A model generated the notes under the pieces. It saw only the letters and a list, made by a program, of their open reading frames with translations. It was not told the DNA's origin and did no database searches. Shown here in pieces: positions 21,360 through 46,957 of a stretch of DNA of 64,000 nt. The DNA comes from Candidatus Methylospira mobilis. Its GTDB lineage: Bacteria; Pseudomonadota; Gammaproteobacteria; Methylococcales; Methylococcaceae. The position numbers were made by a program, and so were the translations under genes. Location of the stretch: positions 4,629,816-4,693,815 of the forward strand of contig NZ_CP044205.1 in NCBI RefSeq assembly GCF_009498235.1. Reading direction: 5' to 3'. Position 1 is the stretch's first letter. Each line of letters starts with the position of its first letter.

Positions 21360-23666
21360 TTTCTAAGCTGCCTATGCGGCAGCGAACGCTGCGGCGAATG
21401 GATCGTTTTCGTTGTAATATTTCTAAGCTGCCTATGCGGCAGCGAACACGATCAATGCGCAAATAAGCGGCGTTGTAATTTTCTAAGCTGCCTATGCGGC
21501 AGCGAACGATAGGGCGAAGCCAGGGAATGGCGAAGGGTATTTCTAAGCTGCCTATGCGGCAGCGAACCCAGCACAGCCAACGCATGCAAAGGGTCAGTGT
21601 TTCTAAGCTGCCTATGCGGCAGCGAACACCGGCTGTGAGCGCCCACAGTTCGCCTTTTATTTCTAAGCTGCCTATGCGGCAGCGAACAGCGATTTCATCG
21701 CGTTGAGCGCGATATTCATTTTCTAAGCTGCCTATGCGGCAGCGAACCATGATGTGTTACCGGAACGATAAACGGTTTGTTTCTAAGCTGCTTATGCGGC
21801 AGCGAACTTTAATGCCGGCGCTGATCCGGTGGCTACGATTTTCTAAGCTGCCTATGCGGCAGCGAACACCCTGTCGACTGAGCGGTTATGTTTGCCCTTT
21901 TTCTAAGCTGCCTATGCGGCAGCGAACTACGCTGAGCGCGTGCGCTTCTTCGATAACAATTTCTAAGCTGCCTATGCGGCAGCGAACGAATGGTTGATGC
22001 CAAGATTGCGACCGTAGACTTTCTAAGCTGCCTATGCGGCAGCGAACGATCTGCGACAATATCCGTTGGTGTCGCTGATTTTCTAAGCTGCCTATGCGGC
22101 AGCGAACTTCGGCAAGAAGGGAGTGATTTACCGCTTGATTTTCTAAGCTGCCTATGCGGCAGCGAACGGGGTCAGAGGACGCGCTCCGGAGGCGATGCAT
22201 TTCTAAGCTGCCTATGCGGCAGCGAACGACCTGTGCGCCGCCTACATGCTCGACAAGCTTTTCTAAGCTGCCTATGCGGCAGCGAACGAAATATCCAATA
22301 ACCTTGCAGCATGCTCAGTTTTCTAAGCTGCCTATGCGGCAGCGAACGTGCATGCGTTGCGGCTATTCCGGAGACGCGTTTTCTAAGCTGCCTATGCGGC
22401 AGCGAACGTCAATGCGCCCCCGGTATAGTTCGCGTCCTTTTTCTAAGCTGCCTATGCGGCAGCGAACAGCTGCGCACCGTATTCCAGGCCTAATTTTTTT
22501 TTCTAAGCTGCCTATGCGGCAGCGAACAAGATAATCGGCTTATGAAGTCATGCCCATATTTTCTAAGCTGCCTATGCGGCAGCGAACAATCTATATGCCG
22601 CAGTTTGCGCCGCGCGTATTTTCTAAGCTGCCTATGCGGCAGCGAACCGGGAAGGGCGTACACGCTGCGCACCGATTCCTTTCTAAGCTGCCTATGCGGC
22701 AGCGAACATCACCAAACGCGGCTTCACCCTGCTGGCGATTTTCTAAGCTGCCTATGCGGCAGCGAACACCTCGCGCGATCTGTTTGATAATCTGATCTTT
22801 TTCTAAGCTGCCTATGCGGCAGCGAACTACAGAAAATCGAAACAGCCGCCGCTCATTTTTTTCTAAGCTGCCTATGCGGCAGCGAACACGTTGAGCAGGT
22901 GAGGAACTAAGCTACCCATTTTCTAAGCTGCCTATGCGGCAGCGAACCGAAAGAGTTTCCCGGCGTAGCCAATTTTCTTTTTCTAAGCTGCCTATGCGGC
23001 AGCGAACTTCATGTTCTTGTATGCTTTCCAGCTCTTCGTTTTCTAAGCTGCCTATGCGGCAGCGAACATGAAGACGACCTGAAAACGCGCTTGATCCCTT
23101 TTCTAAGCTGCCTATGCGGCAGCGAACATGAATGATGGCGGCGTCACATGGCTGGCAATTTTCTAAGCTGCCTATGCGGCAGCGAACTTGATACAGGGAT
23201 TTGTTCCGGTTCTGGTTTATTTCTAAGCTGCCTATGCGGCAGCGAACCCACACGCGGCCCTTGTGGGTTACGGATGCCTTTCTAAGCTGCCTATGCGGCA
23301 GCGAACAACTTTCGCGAGGCGGCGACCAAATTCCTATTTTTCTAAGCTGCCTATGCGGCAGCGAACTTTATGACTCATCATTCGAGCGTAATTGAATTTT
23401 TCTAAGCTGCCTATGCGGCAGCGAACGAGTAGTGCATTTCAAAATGTTGCATCGTATTTTTCTAAGCTGCCTATGCGGCAGCGAACGCTCCGCATGCGGC
23501 TTGCGGTTCGCCCTTGACTTTCTAAGCTGCCTATGCGGCAGCGAACTTCATACACCTCGTCCGGTATTAAAAGTACCTTTTCTAAGCTGCCTATGCGGCA
23601 GCGAACCATAGCAGAGGAAACCAAGCGTCCGTGCAGTTTTTCTAAGCTGCCTATGCGGCAGCGAAC
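21360..23666 (-). CRISPR. type I-F CRISPR array, 39 repeats and 38 spacers
   Basis: The 28-base repeat reads, on the transcribed minus strand, GTTCGCTGCCGCATAGGCAG followed by CTTAGAAA. It contains the I-F stem CTGCC-GCATA-GGCAG recognised by Cas6f. Spacing is 60 bases, giving 32-base spacers, except one 31-base spacer (repeat starting at 23220). Repeats are almost invariant; only the one starting near 21780 has a change, which breaks the loop-closing C-G pair. The leader is on the right, next to cas6f, so the newest spacers are near 23.6 kb. The apparent open frames of repeated peptides across this region are not genes. Confidence 0.98.
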
Positions 23667-24380: not shown

Positions 24381-25338
24381 TTAGTCCTTGCCGCTTTCGC
24401 CGAATACGCCGCCGCGCACCAGCACCGCCATCACGTAATGCTCGTCGTTTTTGTGATCGAGCTTGCCTCCGCGCGCGAAACGGTCGAACAGCGTGTAAAA
24501 GTCGGCTTTTTCCTTCGGGGTGCGGTAGGCTTTGCCGAGACTGGTCACAGCGCCGTAAGGCTCTATCGCAATCGGGCCTGCGCCGTTCTGGCTGTCGTCG
24601 TGCGCCGGATACCAGGTGTCGATAGTGCGCAACGCGTTGCCGATTTTTTGCGAGTGCATGCCGGCTATGCCGTCGATCTGGTAGAGAATCTTGCTTTTCT
24701 TCGACTTGCTGTTGCCTTTGTCCAGCACCAGCTCTTCGCTGGGATAAACATCCTGCGCTAACCCTATCTGCGCATAAGCGCTGATTTCCAGCAACAGGAA
24801 TTCGGTTTTGCCGGACAAGGCGGCGGCGATTTTGGCGGCAAGTGCGGCGATATCGGCATGATTGAGATCGAAGCTGTGGGTGCCGACGGTTTTAGCGTCG
24901 AAAACCCAGCTTTGCGCCTCGCCCTGATTCAACACCCTGACCGCAACTTCGATGCGTTCCGCGCCGACGCGGTTGCGCCATAAAAAGCGGGCGTTGGCGA
25001 TGTTGACCGCGTAGCGTCCGGCCAGCTCGGTAAATCCTTCGGCGTCGATATAGGCTTTGGCCGCCTGCGCGTAACTGGCGCTGAATTCGGCGCTGTTGCA
25101 GGCCGACGGTCTGTAAATTGGGCTTTTCCACTTCGGCGTCCAGTTTCAGCGGATCGTCCTGCAACGGCTTTTTCAGGCGGTTGGAAATGGTGCCGCGCAC
25201 CGATTTTTCCTGCAGTTTCAGCGGCGCTGCCGGCCCGTATTTGTTTTCCCAGGCGACGCCGTAGAAACGTCCGTCGGAAGGAACCAGTTTTTTCTCGAAT
25301 GCGAGTACCGTGGCGATGGGCTTGTCTTTCTTAGCCAT
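24381..25338 (-). pseudogene. cas7f: cas7f (csy3), broken by an internal out-of-frame deletion
   Basis: Csy3 forms the six-subunit backbone of the type I-F surveillance complex. The first frame gives MAKKDKPIATVLAFEKKLVP through SVRGTISNRLK to KPNLQTV. It then leaves the csy3 frame near 25104. The second frame resumes with ACNSAEFSASYAQAAKAYI and runs normally to the end, including ANARFLWRNRVGAE and HSQKIGNALRTIDTWYP. Compared with my memory of Pseudomonas Csy3, about 27 residues between LQTVD and ACN are missing. A deletion of about 83 bases explains both the gap and the frameshift. No full-length Csy3 can be made. Confidence 0.85.
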
Positions 25339-33117: not shown

Positions 33118-35988
33118 TCACTCGTAAGGGTTGCCGCCATGCTCAGCCAGATACAACTCCGCCGACACAGGATTACCGGTCGGCTCGTAGATATCCGGCC
33201 TTAACAGCCGATCGACAAAGCGCCAATACATGGGTTCGGAGAATTCCTTAACCAACGGCAAATTGAGCGCGGCGTAGACAGGCGTCCAGGCTTCTTCCTC
33301 GCCGTTTTTAACACGCACTGACAGAGCGGGGTTGAACTGATACCAGCCTGTTCTAACGCGTTGAAATAAACGCCGGTTATAGGCGTAATCGCGCTCCACC
33401 TCGTTGCGAGACAGCACGCCGGATAAATAGGGGCGCTTGCGGCGATGTTCCGGCAGCACCGACAACGGCGCCAGTTCGTAGGCGGCGAGCAAAGCTTTGG
33501 TATCGAAGGCGGGCGGCTCTCCCCATCGCCCCCTGCTGAAGCAGAATTTGAACAAGGCCCACATCGTCTGGAACAGAAAATACTCGCTCAAATGGCGATC
33601 AATGCGCACCAGGCGTTCGCCTGCCATTACGTCCACAGCAGGCGGGGCGATCAAGCCGTAAATTGTGGCGAAAGACTGTTGGGCGAATTGCTTATCCTTA
33701 TGTTGAAATACCCTGACCATGGCCCAATGCAAGGCGTTGCGCCCAAGATGGTCGGTCAATTCGATGTTGGCGCCGCGCTCCAGCAAAGCTTCGATCAGCG
33801 GGATATTGCCCGTGGCTGCTGCAGCCATCAATGGCGTAAAATTCATCGGCGAACGGTAATCGACGCCGTGACGCTCGCATTCGCGCAGAACCTCCTTGAA
33901 ATTGTTCTGCTCGTAGCGGCCCAGGTGCTTGCGCCGCAGCGACGGAAATTGTTGCGCGTAATGTTTGGCCTGCTCGTATTTGCCGTAGCGCCCCAAATAA
34001 GCGACCAGAACGGACTCGCTGTACATGGCGGCGTATTCGAACAGCTGATGGCGGTATTTCGCGCTGGGCGCCTGTTCGTGAAACACCTTGCCCAGATGTT
34101 CGCGCAGCCTGGCTTCGTCGAATACCGGCCACGGAACCGGAACCTGTTTGAGTATGTTCTTGCGGATGGCGTCGGCCTGTTCCTGCTTGCCCTGCAATTC
34201 CAGTTTGCGCGCTTCTTTCTGCCAATCCTCCAGCGTGGAGGTTTTGGCCTCCACCTGCATTTTGTCCGCGCCGGCCTGAATGCCCAGCAATTGTAGCAAC
34301 GGATGGCGCGCGTCGGATTCGATCAGATAGATGCGTTTGATCGCGCGGGTCAGCGCTACATACAAGGCGTTGACGAAAAACTTGTAGACTTCCAGCGACT
34401 TGTCGCTTTTATCCCTGGCGCGGCGATAGTCCAGCTCTTCGACTTCCAGATCCCTGGCTGTCACGCCTTCGGCAATTTCCAGATATTCGGCGCGATTGGC
34501 GGAAACGAAGCGGTACAGCACGATATTTTCGTACTCCAGCCCCTTGGCCTCGTGGATGGAAAAGATCAGCGGCGTCTGGAAAAAGCGGCGCGCTTCGGCC
34601 TTGTCTTCGTCGCGCATCACCAGCACCGCGAACTGGGTGGAGGCTTTGGTTTTTTCGTTCAGCTCGCGCTTGACGTTGTCTTTATCCGCCAAGGTCGTGA
34701 CTGCGCCCAAATCGCCGGAAACCGCCTCCACCAGAAAATTGCTTTCGCGGTCGATAGAGCCGAAACGCCTGTGTTTGACTTTCAGCAACGCGTTGGAGAC
34801 GCGGATGGCTTCGCCGCCGTTGCGGAAATTGGCGCGCAGCACCTTCAATTCCTGGTGGGCGGCCAGATCGGGATCATTCCAGAACAGCGACTTGACCTTG
34901 CTCCAGGAGAAAAAATTGGGATGGACAATCTGGTTGGAATCGCCGCACAGCAGGAAATGCCCCGGTTTTTTCAATTGCGCCAGTATCAGAGCGAGTTGAG
35001 CTGTGGTCAAATCCTGCACCTCGTCCACTACCACGAAGTCGTAACGCGGCTGCGCTTCCTGCCGCCATTCGTGAGCGATGAGGTTGAGATCGTATAGTTT
35101 GGTTTCCTGCAGCCAGACGCGATATTTTTCGAACAGGCCGTAAAGGGCGTCGCGCTGGTCTAGCGGAAAAATCGACTGGCGCACGCCCAGTTCGCGGTAT
35201 TGTTCGAGGCTGAGCACCCCGACGGCATCGGCAGCGATAACGCCCCGTATTTCCTCGAACGCCTGATGCGCGTCCACGCCCTTGAAGCCGGCGCGCTGGC
35301 GGCTGAACCACGAAGAAAAATCGCGCCAGCCGGCTTCGCGCCCGGTGGGTACGCGTATGGTTTCGACGAATTCGCGATAAGACAGGAATATCGCCTCCTG
35401 GCCCGGGTGCTCGAAGCCGTTGGCGTAATACAAATCGCGCGCGCTTTGCGCCAGATAGGCGGAGTGGGTAACGTACAGCACCTCGCCCTCGGCGTGTTTC
35501 ATCTTTTCCAGCGTCAGCGCGGTCTTGCCGCTACCGGCCCCGCCCACCACGATCAGCGGCGGCGGCAGACAATAAATCGCCTCTTGAACGTCGTCGAAGG
35601 AAATCACCTTGTCCAGCAAATGGATATCGCCGCGCTCGGGATGTATATAGCGCACTTCTTCAGCGTCGTTGGCGGCTTCGCGCGCATCGACGTTGGGAAT
35701 CAGCGCTTCGTCCACCGCCGCTCCGCGCAGAAAGCGCGATTTGTCGTAAGCATGGTTGGCGATTACCTCCAGCATCAACGCATAAACCGTATCGCCGTGA
35801 CGCACGATGGAAAACAGCAGCCGGTTGGAAGCGTCGAGACGGGCGCGGTAAAATTTGCCGTGGCTCAGGCTGGTCAGTTTTTTCACTTCAGCCGAGCGGA
35901 AATCGTCGCGCTCAATGGCTGCCTTGACTTTTTTGTAAGCGGCCTTGGCTATGGATTTATTCAGGCCGATATATTCGAGAACTCTCAT
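33118..35988 (-). CDS. RelE/ParE-like domain, UvrD-type helicase and ankyrin repeats
   Basis: This protein of 956 residues has three parts. Residues 1-88 (YRARLDASNRLLFSIVRHGD, NHAYDKSRFLRG) resemble the RelE/ParE toxin fold. Residues ~140-620 are a superfamily 1A helicase: Walker A VVGGAGSGKTA near 147-157, DEVQDL as motif II, GDSNQIVHPN as motif III, LRANFRN, HEAKGLEYENIVL as motif V and YVALTRAIKRIYLIE as motif VI. The C-terminal third contains at least two ankyrin-type repeats (FTPLMAAAATGNIPLIEALL, then GRNALHWA). ATG 35988 is preferred; a GTG at 36039 is possible. It is transcribed towards cas1. The role is unknown; defence is suggested only by position. Confidence 0.8.
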   Translation of the reverse strand: MRVLEYIGLNKSIAKAAYKKVKAAIERDDFRSAEVKKLTSLSHGKFYRARLDASNRLLFSIVRHGDTVYALMLEVIANHAYDKSRFLRGAAVDEALIPNVDAREAANDAEEVRYIHPERGDIHLLDKVISFDDVQEAIYCLPPPLIVVGGAGSGKTALTLEKMKHAEGEVLYVTHSAYLAQSARDLYYANGFEHPGQEAIFLSYREFVETIRVPTGREAGWRDFSSWFSRQRAGFKGVDAHQAFEEIRGVIAADAVGVLSLEQYRELGVRQSIFPLDQRDALYGLFEKYRVWLQETKLYDLNLIAHEWRQEAQPRYDFVVVDEVQDLTTAQLALILAQLKKPGHFLLCGDSNQIVHPNFFSWSKVKSLFWNDPDLAAHQELKVLRANFRNGGEAIRVSNALLKVKHRRFGSIDRESNFLVEAVSGDLGAVTTLADKDNVKRELNEKTKASTQFAVLVMRDEDKAEARRFFQTPLIFSIHEAKGLEYENIVLYRFVSANRAEYLEIAEGVTARDLEVEELDYRRARDKSDKSLEVYKFFVNALYVALTRAIKRIYLIESDARHPLLQLLGIQAGADKMQVEAKTSTLEDWQKEARKLELQGKQEQADAIRKNILKQVPVPWPVFDEARLREHLGKVFHEQAPSAKYRHQLFEYAAMYSESVLVAYLGRYGKYEQAKHYAQQFPSLRRKHLGRYEQNNFKEVLRECERHGVDYRSPMNFTPLMAAAATGNIPLIEALLERGANIELTDHLGRNALHWAMVRVFQHKDKQFAQQSFATIYGLIAPPAVDVMAGERLVRIDRHLSEYFLFQTMWALFKFCFSRGRWGEPPAFDTKALLAAYELAPLSVLPEHRRKRPYLSGVLSRNEVERDYAYNRRLFQRVRTGWYQFNPALSVRVKNGEEEAWTPVYAALNLPLVKEFSEPMYWRFVDRLLRPDIYEPTGNPVSAELYLAEHGGNPYE

Positions 35989-36209
35989 GCGGAACCAACA
36001 GGGGAAAATAGAATGAGCGCTATGAAACGATTGACTCACAGCGTAGCGGCAGACGGAACAATGAAGCCGTCCTGATATCGGATATTTTACGGAGATATTG
36101 CGGTTATTTCACTTTGACGTACTTCTTTCTGATTTTCCTCCATAAGGAAAGCGCGTACTGGCCGGTCATATTTGTACAGTAGAGATGTACGCTATCGTGT
36201 GATGCGCCA

Positions 36210-36460: not shown

Positions 36461-36601
36461 AATATTTGCGAATAACCGGCAAACACGCCACAATTATCCA
36501 TAATGCTATGGATAGCAAGGTTACCGATAGCAGGAACAGGCTTGCCCACTACCGAACAGAGAGTTTGCCATGCACTTTATCCTGAAAAATCTACCGTTGG
36601 C

Positions 36602-37474
36602 ATGATTCATCGCCTGCCAACAATTCGTAGTGACCTGAATGGATTCACAGGACTGGGCGGTTTGGCCGAGTGGGCCAAAGACCTTGCTGATGACTGCTTG
36701 GAAGTCGATTTTTCACAGTGCGGTTTTTTCGACGCCAACTTGGCAGCTTGTCTGGCAAGCGTACTGGCGCGAGTAGCCGAAAAATCCAACACTATCAAAA
36801 TCACCAGCGTAGGCCAGGAAGCCGAGAAAATTTTACGCAAAAACAACTTTCTATCCAGCTATGGTTATAGCTCTTTGGCGGACAACAACCACACTACATT
36901 GCCGTTTGCCCGTATTCAGATTGCGGATCAAAACTGCTTCGCCGAGTACTTGGACCAGCATATGAACGGTAAAGGCATCCCTCGCATGTCCGAAGCGCTG
37001 AGCAAACTTTTTCGGCAAAGTATTTTCGAGGTATTCCAGAACTGTATTATTCATTCCAGTTCGCAATCCGGTATCTTCGTCTGCGGACAGTTTTACCCCC
37101 GCCTTAAACGGCTCGACCTGACTATTTCCGATGCCGGCGTCGGTATTCGAACCAATGTAAGGCGTCATCTGCGAAACAACCAAATCAAATCGGTTGACGC
37201 AATCCGCTGGGCGCTGAAGGAAGGCAACAGCACCAAGATCAACAATCAACCGGGCGGTATGGGCCTGAAACTGCTGAAAGAATTCATCGAGTTAAATAAG
37301 GGCAAGATTCAGATCGTCTCCCGGCAGGGTTTCTACCAATTTGAACGCAGCCAGGAAACCTTTCGAGCGCTTTCCTCCGACCTTCCAGGCACCACCGTCA
37401 ATCTGGAAATCAATACCGGAGATCGCCATACTTACCGGCTAAAATCGGAAGTCACTCCCGACGACATTTTTTAG
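36602..37474 (+). CDS. STAS-like plus GHKL ATPase protein of a three-gene cassette
   Basis: This protein of 290 residues (from ATG 36602; the frame opens at 36503) has an N-terminal STAS-like part (LEVDFSQCGFFDANLAACLA) and a C-terminal GHKL (HATPase_c) domain. The N-box is IFEVFQNCIIHS (Asn147), the G1 box DAGVGIR (Asp177) and the G2 box GGMGLKLL (218-225). This resembles anti-sigma kinases such as SpoIIAB/RsbW and related ATPases, not a membrane sensor kinase. No transmembrane segment is visible. The next gene follows after 9 bases. I infer a partner-switch role with the STAS-like protein. Confidence 0.75.
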   Translation: MIHRLPTIRSDLNGFTGLGGLAEWAKDLADDCLEVDFSQCGFFDANLAACLASVLARVAEKSNTIKITSVGQEAEKILRKNNFLSSYGYSSLADNNHTTLPFARIQIADQNCFAEYLDQHMNGKGIPRMSEALSKLFRQSIFEVFQNCIIHSSSQSGIFVCGQFYPRLKRLDLTISDAGVGIRTNVRRHLRNNQIKSVDAIRWALKEGNSTKINNQPGGMGLKLLKEFIELNKGKIQIVSRQGFYQFERSQETFRALSSDLPGTTVNLEINTGDRHTYRLKSEVTPDDIF

Positions 37475-40186: not shown

Positions 40187-40939
40187 TCATTGAGTTATTT
40201 TTTGATCAAATAGCCGCTCCAGCGTTGCCGGAACAAGAGCCTGATTGGCCTTGCGGATGCCTTCATGCTTGGCTTTGAGTTCGGCTATCTTGGCTTGAAG
40301 CGCGTCAAAAGCGTATTGAGTGGCGAGTAATGGAACCGGGATTTCAAGCGCCATCAGCTTTTGCAAACCGAGAGTCCGGTTGCGGCCTGCTCCGCCCGGC
40401 GATGCTGAGCCTATTTTTTCCATGCCTGCGTCAGTCAGAAAGAAATAGCGCAGAAACTCGGCGGTAGCCAGTTTTTTGTCAGGCACGCAGCCGATGAAGC
40501 GGTGCGAACCAAAACGCCCGGCATCCTCGGGCTGTGCGATGGCAATTGCGCCTTCCCAGGCAAACACATTGGAAAACAGCAAATCGCCCGCTTCGATGCG
40601 AAACAGCCGCTTGGAGCTAACTTCGGAGCCAGTCAACGGTGGTTTGTGGAAGGTGCCTTTACCGAAAGAGCGGATACCCAACTCGGGATAACTATCATCA
40701 AGAATAATTCTTTGTTCGCGACACACTAATGGCGCTACCTCGGCCATCGTTCGTAACGGCGCATCCTTGATGGCCTCGCGAAAACGCACGGCGAGCAGGC
40801 GTTCGGCATCGGCCTCAATAGTGTCAAGATGCTTGTTGACCTGTTGTGTCTTCTCGGCCAAAGCATCCAAACGGGACACAATGGTTTGCTGTTCGTCAGC
40901 GGAGTGTAAGATAGCTTTCAGGCCGGAGAGTTGGTCCAT
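40187..40939 (-). pseudogene. hsdS: chimera of a cas1 5' end and half of an hsdS
   Basis: Codons 1-13 (MDQLSGLKAILHS) match the Cas1f N-terminus of this window in 12 of 13 residues. The frame then passes directly into a type I restriction specificity subunit: a conserved spacer helix (DEQQTIVSRLDALAEKTQQV), one target-recognition domain and the distal helix (YAFDALQAKIAELKAKHEGI). The first recognition domain is missing. No hsdM or hsdR is in the window. The product is open but half-length, so it could only act if it dimerised with modification subunits encoded elsewhere. Confidence 0.75.
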
Positions 40940-41001
40940 GGCAAATTTTGTAATACCCAAAAACTCGTAGCGAATGAATCATATAATGAGCCCCCTGTAG
41001 T

Positions 41002-42653
41002 CTATCCTCCAAGCCGCTCCTGCAGTGCCATCGCTTGTGGGTTTTGATGCTCCACCAACATGCGTAGCAGGCGAAAATATATGGTGCGTGTTTCTGTACC
41101 CTGTTTGACCAGTTCCTGGCTTATATCGAGCAGATCAGCCATGTGTGTATCAATTTCGTCGCAGGAGTTACGCCAAAAACCATGTTGCGCAATCGTTTGA
41201 TCCAGCCATTTTATTCCTGGTATCCGTAACGATTCCGCGACTGGTTTTGTAAGGAATTTAATGAACGCACGAGCACATGTATTCGCAGGCAACTTGGCTT
41301 CGCACCAAAGACGAAATTCATCTGTCATGGCTTTAACCAAGTGTTTTTTATCCGTGCTCCAGAAACCATCGCTTAAGGTTAACTCGCCCAACCCCATCAA
41401 TGAACAGTAACTTTTATCCATATCCCATGCACGTTTGGCAGCGTTGTTCCAGGCTGGGCTTGTTTGGGTGAATGCCCATATCTCTTTCCAGACCGAAATG
41501 AAACGTTGCTGTCCTTGCGTATCGCTTGAAAACCCATAATTCCACCAGTCGCTCAAAAAGTCATCTATCCAATAATGCGCTGGCGCACCCAACGTCAGAA
41601 TCGGGCACCATAGGCTTTCGGCTTCTTGTGCGGTTTTTGTCGATACCAGAATGACAGGTAGTTTTTTGAATAGCCAACGGTCGAATTGATACGGAGTCCC
41701 ATCTATTTTTTCAATTTCTGACTTCCCTTCGCCCAGCATCCATTGTACGGTATAAATACATTGTTGCCAAAATTCGAGCCATTGTAAGCGTTCAGTTTCA
41801 CTATGTGCATTGTTAAGGTCTGGCAACCAGTCATGGGCTGATTGAATTAAATGCAAATCAATACCGGGTGGCCGTGGATAATAAGTTTGCCTATCAAACT
41901 CGTCGGTTACATTTAGACTGGATCTATGATCAACGAAAGTATGGTCTATGGTTATCCAGCGTGGAATAGTCGGTGACAGTGATGCGTCCACGAATTTACG
42001 AAGCAAAACATTGGTTTCTTCCGCTAGCTCTTCGCTGGCGGATTTTTCTTTACCGCCTAATCTTCCGAGGCGGTGGCGTAAAACGGACCAGCGCAACAAC
42101 ATATGTTGTAATCGGAAGAAATCCTCTCCCAATTGCAGACGCAACCCTGCAATTTCATGGAACAACCGTTGCACCGTGTTGTAATGCAGATTAAAAATCA
42201 GAGTGCCTATGGCTTGGCGTATTACAGGCGTATCTGGATTTTCTGCCCATAATATCGGCAACGCATCGGCGCAAAAACTGTCCCACCAAGTATCCATAAT
42301 ATTTTCCGCCATATCGAATTTTCGTCCTGGCGGCGGAGTTAGCACCGTTTCAACCAGATAATTGATGCAATCGGGCTCCTGATTCGCGTTAAAATTAAGC
42401 CAACCTCTAAACTTGCAGACCGCAACAGCAATAAGGCCACATGCTACGTCTTGCTCATATACAAGTTGATCTTTATCGAAAATTTCGTCAAAATCGAGAT
42501 CGAGAAGTCGAACACCGAGCTCCCATAGTTGCTCAAGCTCTGTTTCTGAAAGCTTTTGTTTGTCATCAATAACCTGTCGGCAACGCATTGGAAAGTAGAT
42601 GATCGCTTGACGATTTTCATGGCGTTGTTTATCTTCTACATTTCGTAATGCTA
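41002..42653 (-). pseudogene. C-terminal segment of a large Avs-like STAND protein
   Basis: From ATG 42588 this frame encodes 528 residues with no recognisable enzyme domain, rich in aromatic and helical segments and ending in LRMLVEHQNPQAMALQERLG. The frame is open and coding-like upstream of this ATG (EIALRNVEDKQRHENRQAII). That stretch joins the end of the previous segment (MRFQLQFMEPG) if one G is added to the G4 run at 42657-42660. I therefore read it as the C-terminal sensor part of the same protein. It could alternatively be a separate downstream gene. Confidence 0.55.
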
Positions 42654-43336
42654 TTTCCCCGGTTCCATGAACTGGAGTTGGAACCTCATATTATTTTCAG
42701 GGTCTTGTTTAACTTTCCAATTATTCCAGTTGAATTGATGAAAAAGGCGTAACAATAATTCGTCTCGTAGTTCATCTTTCGCGGCGTTTTGCAACTTTTC
42801 TTTCCAAATCTCCCTTACACTATCAATATAACTCCTGAAATTCGTATCTTTAAACTGAAGTTCTAACACAATGTTTTCAAGCCTTTTTTTCTATGGGGCG
42901 CTCCATGCCATTCCTTTGCGGCTTCAAACTCTTTTTGTGTATGCCCGACTCTCCAACCTATCATTTGATGACCTTCTCTATCAATCTGGTGGCGAAGATC
43001 GAACTCATAAATTTCCGGTGACCCCAGGAAAGAGCGCAACGGCCCAAGAAAAAGTTTGGGCTGCTTTCGTCCTACTCCAATTAAAAGTCCGGCCAAGGCC
43101 AATGAGCGTGTGCGTTTGAGGATATCGGCGATGATATGATCTATATCCTCGCTTTTGTCCAGTTGGATGTAAAACCATCTTTCCAAGGCCATCAGCGCAG
43201 AAACAAGAATATTGGGCGCTGGAGGCATATGTCGGTAGCTGAAAAACCACCGACGGTCGCTAATCCATGTTTGTACGCCGTCAGCGAATGGTATATCAAC
43301 GCTTAAAATCAGATCTTCTTTCGGTAACCATTGCGG
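42651..43336 (-). pseudogene. middle segment of the Avs-like STAND protein, with frameshift
   Basis: Immediately after TGA 43337 the same frame continues PQWLPKEDLILSVDIPFADG, then NILVSALMALERWFYIQLDK, a helical-repeat pattern I recall from large STAND proteins. At the A7 run 42884-42890 a one-base slip is needed to pass from APHRKK into RLENIVLELQFKDTNFRSYI. Without it the frame ends at TAG 42863-42865. The sequence A-AAA-AAA-G would also allow -1 ribosomal slippage into exactly this frame. The last stop is TAG 42651-42653. Confidence 0.6.
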
Positions 43337-45112
43337 TCACTCACGCTGGGATTCGTTTGCTAGCTTCCATTGCTGCCGTTCCCGCCAGCGTTCAGTCGTA
43401 AAGTTTACGAGTTTGACGACTGTGTCCAAGCCTATAGTTGGATGAAAAGTCAGTAAACATTGGAATGGGCCGTTGTCGTAAAAAGGCTGTCTATATAAAT
43501 GGGCGTCCGCTAATTCAAAGTCGTAATGTGTACTTTGATAGTCGCTTTCCGGTAGTCGCGTTCCACCTTTTTTGATAACCAGCGCCAACGTAATTTCCGC
43601 AGCAATATCCGGTTTGAGTACGATAAACCGTAAAAATTCGAAACTCTTCCAGCATATTTCTCTGAAAACGCAGTCTATCGGCCAGCGTGGTCCATCCTGC
43701 CAGGCTGGAATTTCGATTTCATATTTGCGCCAGGGAGGAACAAAATTCAGTGCCGCTTCAAATTCTGGCGGAATAGGCCGAGGCTGAAATTCCGGTTCAT
43801 CAGGTTCAGATATAGGTGGAAATGGTTCTGTAGGTTCGCGTCGACCGCAAGCGCACAGTGCAACGTCGATAACAAGATCCGCGCACACATCTATTGCCAG
43901 CAATACGGCTGAATAAGCTTTTTTTGCTGTAGCTTCCGAATCGCTATGTGAATAACGGTTACTTGAGTAATGCCGAAGATGCCAATGCTGTCGATAACGA
44001 AGGGTCTGCCAAGCTACCGCCAACGCTAAATCTGCGGCCTGTTTTCGCAGAGGCGTGTCTGTTGCGGTCCAGCGTACCCAACACTCTGCAACCTCCGCAG
44101 TTTGTAGCGGTGCGAGATCGGTGCATGTTTCCCTGTGCGCATCCAGAAAGCGGAGCATGGCACCCCATAATGCCGGTTTCGGCTTCCGGTTTACGCTGGA
44201 CGCCCAGGTTTCGCTTAAACCTTCCCGCGATCTGGCATACTCAAGCATCTCAGGATTTGGCGATGTGGCGAGATGAAGGAACCGTGTCAATAAGCGGCGT
44301 AACCAGAGACCGTCCTGGTCACATAGTTGCGACCAAGCTTGTGCGAGTGCATCCGTAGTTTGGGCTGCGCGGATCAATGCTTCAAGCAATAGGTCACAGA
44401 ACTGGCTTTCGCCGTTTTCGAGCGATTTGCTTTGCTCCAGCAACTCGCGCCAACGCTCCGGTTTTACGCGGCGTTCAAGTAAATCCAGGCCGAGCAATAC
44501 TATGGCCCGGTGCCAAACGGGGTTGTCGAGTTGCGTTTCGATAAATGCGGGCAGTTCCTTTTCATGAGCCAGCAACAAACGTTGACGAGACCAATCGCCC
44601 CATAGATCGTGAGTGAAGGAGACACGACCCTCCTTACATTGGCATATCCGGTCGGCTTCCAAGTCATCAAGCGCTATATCGGCAACGTCGCTTAGTTCGT
44701 CAAGCGCGACATCGACGGAAAGTTGTTGTGCTTGTTTGTCCGCCAGTTGCCACAACAAACGTTGGCGGGCGGTGGCTGGTTTTTTGCTTTCGATTGCCGC
44801 TTTCCAAATCCAGTCGATTACATCCGGTTCACCAGCCCAAACGCGGACGCTTGGCAGTTTTCCTGCTTCGCTGTTCCGTGCCAACAAATCGAGAATTTTC
44901 GGCTGGCGCAATATAGGGATCAAGTGGTCTTGAAATGATAGTGATCGTAGCGCCGGGAAATTGTTAATTAACGTAGATAATTCTTCGGTGCTAACCTGAG
45001 GCACTAAAACCGTTGCCCAGGTGGTGACCGGAAGGCCGGTTTGCAGCAGGGCTACTTGAACATCCCCCCAGGCTTGTTCCTGGCATGTCAGCAGCACACG
45101 GAACGAATCTTT
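43337..45112 (-). pseudogene. STAND module and helical segment of the Avs-like protein
   Basis: The frame continues directly from the amber codon 45113-45115 with KDSFRVLLTCQEQAWGDVQV, the strand normally following Walker B in STAND NTPases. A winged-helix-like segment (LSDVADIALDDLEADRICQC, then VSFTHDLWGDWSRQR) and long helical repeats follow. It ends at TGA 43337-43339 after LANESQRE. An internal ATG 45097 could start a 586-residue protein, but this would lack the P-loop and make no functional ATPase. Confidence 0.65.
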
Positions 45113-46366
45113 CTAGTCGTGATGAACCAACGTAGCCAATAGCTGCGCGGTAGCCGTCATTGATTCGGGCCGGAATAGCAGACGATCCAATCCGTCCAAA
45201 ACCACCGCTACACTGGGGCGTGCCTGAGCTGTTACCATTTCTTGCCATGAGCGGTTGAGTCCTAGCATTTCGCGTAGTTCCGATAAATTGCCGATTTCGA
45301 GTAGCTTGGGATCGAACCATAGCGCGGCTTCCATTTGGGAGCGCTGTTCGACCCAATGGCGCGCCGCTACTGACTTTCCGCCGCCTTGCTCTCCCAACAC
45401 AACCACCACAGGACTGTCGTCAAACGCCGATTCAATTCGCTGTATCAATTGGTTTCTGGGGAAGCGAGTTTTTCCACCGATGAGGTCAATTACCGATTGC
45501 CAGCGATCCTTTGAGTCTAGTCGCAAGCGCAGCCAATCTGCGGCAAAATCAGGATGGTCTTTTAGCGGGAAGCAATGACGCAATGCTTGTAGCGCGGCAG
45601 CAAGATCAATGTGTCCGCGATCCACGCGGTGACGATCTACCAGGCCCACCAGTTCATTCCAAAGGTCTATAGCAGTTTGTAACTCACCGGTTTCTATAAT
45701 TTGTCGGCATAACGTCAAGGCATGTGACATGTCGCTGGACGATGGTTCTTCAATATCCAAAGATTTCACGATAATGCAACGTAGCAATACCGGAATATCT
45801 TCTGTTGTCGCCTGATATTGTGCAGCCAAGTCAGCAGGGCAGGTAAAGCTTACGAATAGTGAGCGTGAGTTTTTTGACAAATCCCCGTTGGTGAGCTGTT
45901 TTACCATTTCAACCGGGTCGCGAACACGAGCCGCCTTCAGGAGAGGAAAAAGGCTGTCTTGTACGGCTGGCGGTAGTTTTGCTGTAATGTTTACCAGCCT
46001 GTCGGTTTCTGCGGAAAATGGGTTGTTTTTCTTTTCAAGGAACTGGAGCCAGCAGCGTCTTACAAAATCTTCAGGGGCTTTTTTCGCAGTGAACTGGCGA
46101 TTGCTTTTGATTGAAATGGCGCAATGATGGGTGGCTGTCGCGCTTGTGGAAGTCAACATCAAGTCGTCGAGCTTCCATCCATCCGGTGCTGTTTGAAACG
46201 ACAAACGTTGAAGCGAGCCTAGCTCTATGTCTAATGGATGCACGCCGGAAAGCATATGAAGCAAACACCATGCTCCGGCTTGGCTTTCAAAACCGAATCC
46301 TTTGCCGCCGGTTAGATTGGCTGAGTGTATGCTTGGTTCTTTCGGGTTTGGTCTCTTTTTGGTCAT
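45113..46366 (-). pseudogene. N-terminal nuclease-like domain and P-loop of the Avs-like STAND protein
   Basis: Residues ~15-150 (GGKGFGFESQAGAWCLLHML, then WKLDDLMLTS and AISIKSN) resemble the PD-(D/E)xK Cap4/DUF4297-type nuclease of Avs proteins, with D and E-x-K-like positions partly visible. Further on come Walker A VVVLGEQGGGKSVAARHW and Walker B VAVVLDGLDRLLF. Avs proteins sense phage proteins through their C-terminal repeats and then cut DNA. ATG 46366 is preferred; a GTG at 46372 also exists. The amber stop after TLVHHD separates sensor from nuclease. Confidence 0.65.
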
Positions 46367-46514
46367 TTGCACTCATGGCGTAATTAATTGAAGAGAAAAT
46401 AACTCAATCTGCCGGGGGACGCGGCCCGCCTTAAGCTTAGCCGGCAATCAATTGCATAGACGGTAGGCGCTGATTTCCTTGTTTGCCGGGAACATCAATC
46501 ATTCCCTCCAATCC

Positions 46515-46700
46515 TCAACCTGCAAACCGTTGACCTGCCCGAAAGCGCGGGCGTTTCACCAGCCCAAACAGAAGTTCGCCTTCGGTGATTGCTGAAATAC
46601 AAAGAGACGCCATCGGCGCTGTCGTTACGCGTCGAGTAACAGCTGGGTGCGCTTTGACCAGGTGGCTCACAGTGTTGGTGTCGAGCATGTGGCGCTTCAT
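46515..46700 (-). pseudogene. vapC: vapC toxin, truncated
   Basis: The ATG overlaps the vapB stop (ATGA). The first part, MKRHMLDTNTVSHLVKAHPA and ISAITEGELLFGLVKRP, is a normal VapC PIN-domain N-terminus with the first Asp and the conserved Glu. The frame ends after about 61 residues; VapC proteins have about 130. The C-terminal acidic residues are absent, so it cannot be an active ribonuclease. Confidence 0.8.
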
Positions 46701-46957
46701 TCGCTCCAATCTTCGAAAGGATCGCGGTCTTGCATGCCCTGGCAATGCTCATGCTCGTCGAGAAAAGCGGCGGATTTATCGGCCTCCTTGAGCGCACTGA
46801 AAAAGTCGTCCCAATTCTCTTGTTTACGCGACAGGATGACGTCGCCGGTCTCCGGGTCCCGGCGGATGAAAACTTCCCTGGTGTCGAAGCGGTATGCTGC
46901 CGGCAGGCGTACCGCCTGACTGCGGCCGTTGGCGAATAATTTGGCTGCCTGGCTCAT
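46697..46957 (-). CDS. vapB: VapB antitoxin (AbrB/SpoVT type)
   Basis: This 86-residue protein starts with the swapped-hairpin DNA-binding domain (AKLFANGRSQAVRLPAAYRF) and ends in an acidic toxin-binding tail (DEHEHCQGMQDRDPFEDWSE). It would repress its own promoter and neutralise VapC. Because the coupled vapC is truncated it is probably an orphan. It marks the right edge of the defence island before hypF. Confidence 0.88.
   Translation of the reverse strand: MSQAAKLFANGRSQAVRLPAAYRFDTREVFIRRDPETGDVILSRKQENWDDFFSALKEADKSAAFLDEHEHCQGMQDRDPFEDWSE

Follow-up and report, generated by a model that had tools for sequence, protein, structure and literature searches.

The minus strand of the window (the whole 64,000-nt stretch of Candidatus Methylospira mobilis DNA analyzed here) very probably carries, from 46366 to 41002, a pseudogene of recent origin, derived from an Avs4-like STAND receptor that acts against phages as a one-gene system. 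The gene encodes a tripartite STAND immune receptor, with a Cap4/LmuA-type nuclease, a P-loop NTPase and an all-helical sensor. It belongs to a divergent Avs4-like family, a distant relative of Avs4, which is little annotated but recognizable, and which is intact in many other bacteria. In this strain two stops and two frame changes interrupt its reading frame, leaving five consecutive open pieces that are collinear with one long gene and together amount to about 1,790 codons. No other copy was found in the complete, single-contig genome (4.70 Mb).

All five pieces are on the minus strand. Piece 1 (45116-46366) covers the PD-(D/E)xK nuclease domain, of Cap4/LmuA type, a linker, and the first part of the STAND NTPase; it has 419 codons counted from the GTG at 46372, where the open frame begins, while the ATG at 46366 corresponds to the start in the nearest relative, G025. 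It ends at the first lesion, an in-frame TAG (45113-45115) inside the NTPase domain. Piece 2 (43340-45112, 591 codons) holds the remaining STAND NTPase/winged-helix region and the onset of the helical region, and is closed by an in-frame TGA (43337-43339) in a linker of variable length. Piece 3 (42890-43336, 149 codons) is a conserved helical block, ALMALERWFY...APHRKK, and is separated by a frame change at an A7 run (42884-42890) from piece 4 (42660-42887, 76 codons, helical). A second frame change, at a G4 run (42657-42660), leads to piece 5 (41005-42657, 551 codons), the all-helical C-terminal sensor, with its stop at 41002-41004. The positions of the four junctions are identical to those in the initial annotation. 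In an alignment of relatives, homologues continue without a break across all four; the TGA junction is the least constrained, because the linker there varies in length.

The joining of the five pieces into one reading, as first proposed from the open reading frames, is confirmed by what is found elsewhere and is no chance effect. Each piece matches the same G025 protein, in order and with an E value of 1e-16 or better, and in other bacteria most or all of the pieces have their counterparts within one unbroken protein. G025 belongs to the same family, and its gene is open at all four lesion sites; identity to it is 66% for piece 1, 68% and then 53% along piece 2, and 63, 41, and 49% for pieces 3, 4, and 5. 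Two plasmid-encoded homologues, 25-29% identical, each align as one protein along the entire gene: WP_244217987.1 of Paraburkholderia caledonica (1,732 residues, intact) and WP_066122143.1 of Geminocystis NIES-3709 (1,604 residues, without a recognized nuclease domain). They are annotated as “hypothetical protein” or “AAA family ATPase.” This continuity in relatives, together with the domains described below, supports an Avs-like STAND gene in which two stops and two frame changes have disrupted the reading.

Piece 2 as the sole query gave almost no matches in 369 genomes of the class or in a scan of genome contigs, and none in phage records; where it failed by itself, an alignment-based query was needed, and this supplied the relatives' loci. 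The gene was found in 18 further loci, spanning Nitrospirae, Myxococcota, Cyanobacteria, Chloroflexota, and Proteobacteria, and in one contig from a viral collection (IMG/VR; L050, 4884-10256), where it is an intact family member of 1,791 codons. At least 15 of these are full-length copies with one open frame (1,726-1,866 codons) through every junction, which provides the intact alleles that the initial annotation had suggested seeking in relatives. Elsewhere, L017 has an open frame that matches only from the NTPase onward, the L014 gene is cut by a contig end, and there is a frame change in the L026 gene. The L013 gene (1,563 codons) was first suspected to be broken, but is better read as a member without a nuclease domain. 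The possibility that the C-terminal ~550 residues exist as a separate protein, also raised at the outset, was not borne out: in the relatives examined they never stand apart from the remainder of the protein, except in genes split by an insertion or a frame change. A comparison of neighboring genes found no conserved partner around the family loci, which fits a one-gene system.

The predicted structure of piece 1 (18 sequences; mean pLDDT 85.8, pTM 0.81) has Avs4 (8dgf) as its best structural match, with Z 15.0, followed by Cap4 (6wam; Z 14.1, 202 residues, 4.2 Å), Avs3 (8dgc; Z 13.8), and LmuA (9hr5; Z 13.2, 199 residues, 3.5 Å). Five residues, E29, D69, D70, S87, and K89, are invariant across 18 sequences, the window copy included; judged by sequence, E29/D69/D70/S87-x-K89 is the pattern of a PD-(D/E)xK nuclease, and the predicted fold with its conserved acidic and lysine residues is that of a Cap4-type nuclease domain. 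Toward its end, piece 1 has a Walker A (GEQGGGKS) and a Walker B (VVLDGLD) motif, both intact in the window copy. In the same 18 sequences the aspartate of Walker B and the greater part of Walker A are invariant, G327, K333, and D393 among these positions. Pfam recognized little of this, giving only sub-threshold NTPase matches for the window pieces and little more for the relatives.

The predicted structure of piece 5 (19 sequences; pLDDT 88.1, pTM 0.85) is all helical, and corresponds to the C-terminal sensor fold of Avs4: it superposes over 480 residues (Z 18.4, 4.4 Å; VIA-align) on residues 1069-1587 of 8dgf, a structure in which Avs4 has a phage portal bound. Since a common arrangement of helical repeats can by itself give a Z of about 13, the margin over the next-best structure, at Z 10.7, is of importance. 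Foldseek was also run on the predicted sensor, and the 50 matches it listed were all to helical repeats of a generic kind. A sequence profile of the sensor likewise had no credible relative among solved structures, the best match being a designed protein, and it showed no similarity to Avs4. Given the folds predicted for piece 1 and piece 5, the NTPase, and the single frame of the relatives, the gene has the tripartite order of STAND/AVAST-type receptors; the initial annotation's succession of nuclease-like domain, P-loop, Walker B, and helical sensor is supported by motifs and by predicted folds alike.

Among known systems, Avs4 (AVAST type 4; NF041815, PDLC02169, 8dgf) is the closest in kind, as a single large gene with a nuclease, a STAND NTPase, and a helical sensor in the same order. 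The NCBIfam Avs4 model is matched separately by pieces 1-3, in collinear order but weakly (13.6-25.2 bits), and the same model matches the Aromatoleum (2e-10) and G025 (2e-7) relatives, the best relative reaching 38.7 bits. The curated cut-off of this model is 1500 bits. Neither the window pieces nor the relatives come near it, and the family is therefore named Avs4-like rather than filed as Avs4. By sequence profile, Avs4 8dgf is also the sole convincing solved relative (E 3e-9), in the NTPase region. Against these likenesses, and that of the superposed sensors, stand a sensor sequence just 13% identical, scores of at most 39 bits, and the broken state of the window copy.

The family shares a nuclease and STAND fold with Avs3 too, as the structural match of piece 1 indicates. 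Known Avs3 has about 2,000 residues and, as the title of 8dgc states, binds terminase; no Avs3 profile reached the reporting threshold for the family here. Cap4, a CBASS effector, and LmuA, a Lamassu effector, have in common with it an N-terminal fold of about 250 residues and the conserved E-DD-SxK motif. They differ in context: the domain here is fused to a STAND receptor, rather than to a SAVED sensor or forming part of an SMC-like complex.

The N-terminal domain is not the same throughout the family. No nuclease was recognized in the Geminocystis protein or in L013, so the effector varies. The cyanobacterial members at L008 (5943-10757) and L013 (9277-13965) have no recognized N-terminal nuclease domain, the N-terminal domain of L017 is a different one, and that of L011 resembles LmuA; these differing or absent domains suggest effector swapping within the family.

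The pseudogene lies among other damaged defense genes. The csy3 (cas7f) gene of a type I-F CRISPR system (24381-25338) is in two frames, with its N-terminal part (profile positions 1-72) and its C-terminal part in different ones and about 80 bases missing, as measured against the intact csy3 of two relatives (L051 and L052); 39 repeats remain in the array beside it (21360-23666). Directly downstream of the Avs4-like gene is a fragment of HsdS, a type I restriction specificity subunit (40187-40960, minus strand), from which the first ~144 profile positions, the first third, are absent. Directly upstream is the remnant of a truncated PIN-domain (VapC-like) toxin (46521-46700, minus strand), adjoining a MazE/VapB-like antitoxin (46697-46957). 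The csy3 deletion and the HsdS and VapC fragments point to a decaying defense island rather than random sequencing error, and decay is what the island looks to be undergoing. Two further genes of this region may be mentioned: one (33118-36039), adjoining the cas genes, whose 973-residue product combines ankyrin repeats with UvrD-like helicase motifs, and one with a STAS-like segment, a HATPase domain, and a weak match to DrmA (36503-37474), between the cas genes and a PIN-domain gene.

The lesions are probably real decay, given the two nonsense codons and the damage to neighboring defense genes. It is nevertheless conceivable that the organism itself has an intact gene and that some or all of them are errors of sequencing or assembly. 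Two of the four are single-base steps at homopolymer runs, a frequent error in long reads, and there is no excess of amino-acid change in the window gene when L012 is used as outgroup: 122 changes are unique to the window branch and 117 to the G025 branch. With the Geminocystis protein as outgroup there is a slight excess (106 vs. 82); overall, this relative-rate test gave no sign of long-standing decay. Error is an improbable explanation, however, for a gene whose other two lesions are nonsense codons. The remaining long genes of the window, about 26 kb in all, have no interruption; by a rough simple count, 4 of 5 lesions would fall within this one gene with p ~0.003 under an even error rate, and what csy3 has undergone is the loss of about 80 bases instead of a slip at a homopolymer. 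If the lesions are real, as preferred here, the retained catalytic motifs and the absence of accelerated change imply that inactivation was recent.

Two other readings would keep the gene at work in its present form. The pieces might be expressed separately and then reassemble, as a split Avs; there are possible start codons in the long pieces 1, 2, and 5, and the motifs are conserved. Piece 1 stops inside the NTPase domain, however, piece 4 has a mere 76 codons, and two of the breaks are frame changes, one of them within a conserved block, so that this arrangement is very hard to credit. Alternatively, the stops might be read through and the A7 run slipped over, as is known to happen at runs of this length, so that some full-length receptor is made at a low level; this might act as a phase-variable switch. 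One such product would need four independent events of three kinds, which makes this just as far-fetched. Both models were rejected because relatives carry one open gene through the four sites: they are simply open there, and the parts form one gene in every relative examined unless an insertion or frame change intervenes. A recently inactivated pseudogene remains the preferred reading.

The window copy is not the only broken one. The G025 copy lies on two contigs, and on each of them it ends at a common 8-base TATTTTGC (L005 3950-3975; L006, minus-strand start), adjoined by inverted GTAATCGTTCAGTTACC / GGTAACTGAACGATTAC ends (GTAA...). It appears to be split by IS ends, and the repeat and inverted ends look like those of an IS66-type insertion. 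The plasmid copy of Aromatoleum aromaticum EbN1 (L009 12150-14566) is interrupted by ISAzo2 (IS1182); the missing 280-odd residues are found just downstream of the element, and are 86% identical to the Paraburkholderia protein. A Mesorhizobium STM4661 copy has one frame change, in a draft assembly. Broken copies thus number 4 of about 24 examined, the window copy included, a count which is suggestive but is not a measured rate. A tentative and rather doubtful interpretation is that the family is costly to keep and repeatedly switched off. If so, auto-activation or a lost need would drive rapid loss of the receptor, and these copies would be a natural set of before-and-after alleles.

STAND proteins work by NTPase switching and oligomerization. 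In the intact relatives, the C-terminal helical solenoid would bind a conserved phage protein, which by analogy with Avs4 is most likely the portal. On binding, the central P-loop NTPase would become free to exchange nucleotide and to oligomerize, bringing the N-terminal Cap4-type nuclease domains together; the assembled domains would then cut DNA, so that the infection is halted and the cell sacrificed. For Avs1-4, the sensor recognizes a conserved phage packaging protein (terminase or portal), and the nuclease effector then cuts both phage and host DNA (PMC12931631). We infer ligand, oligomerization, and DNA cleavage for the family described here, and likewise the loss of function of every piece of the window copy.

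Once broken into four or five pieces, a STAND immune receptor vanishes from annotation. The fate of the window copy is otherwise an ordinary one for a defense gene, and together with the co-located damage to csy3, HsdS, and VapC it is an example of a decaying defense island; its use lies in directing attention to the intact family. That is a family of ~1,750-residue receptors, present in several phyla and missed by current Avs4 models despite an Avs4-like predicted sensor fold, and it could serve to test whether portal sensing reaches well beyond known Avs4.
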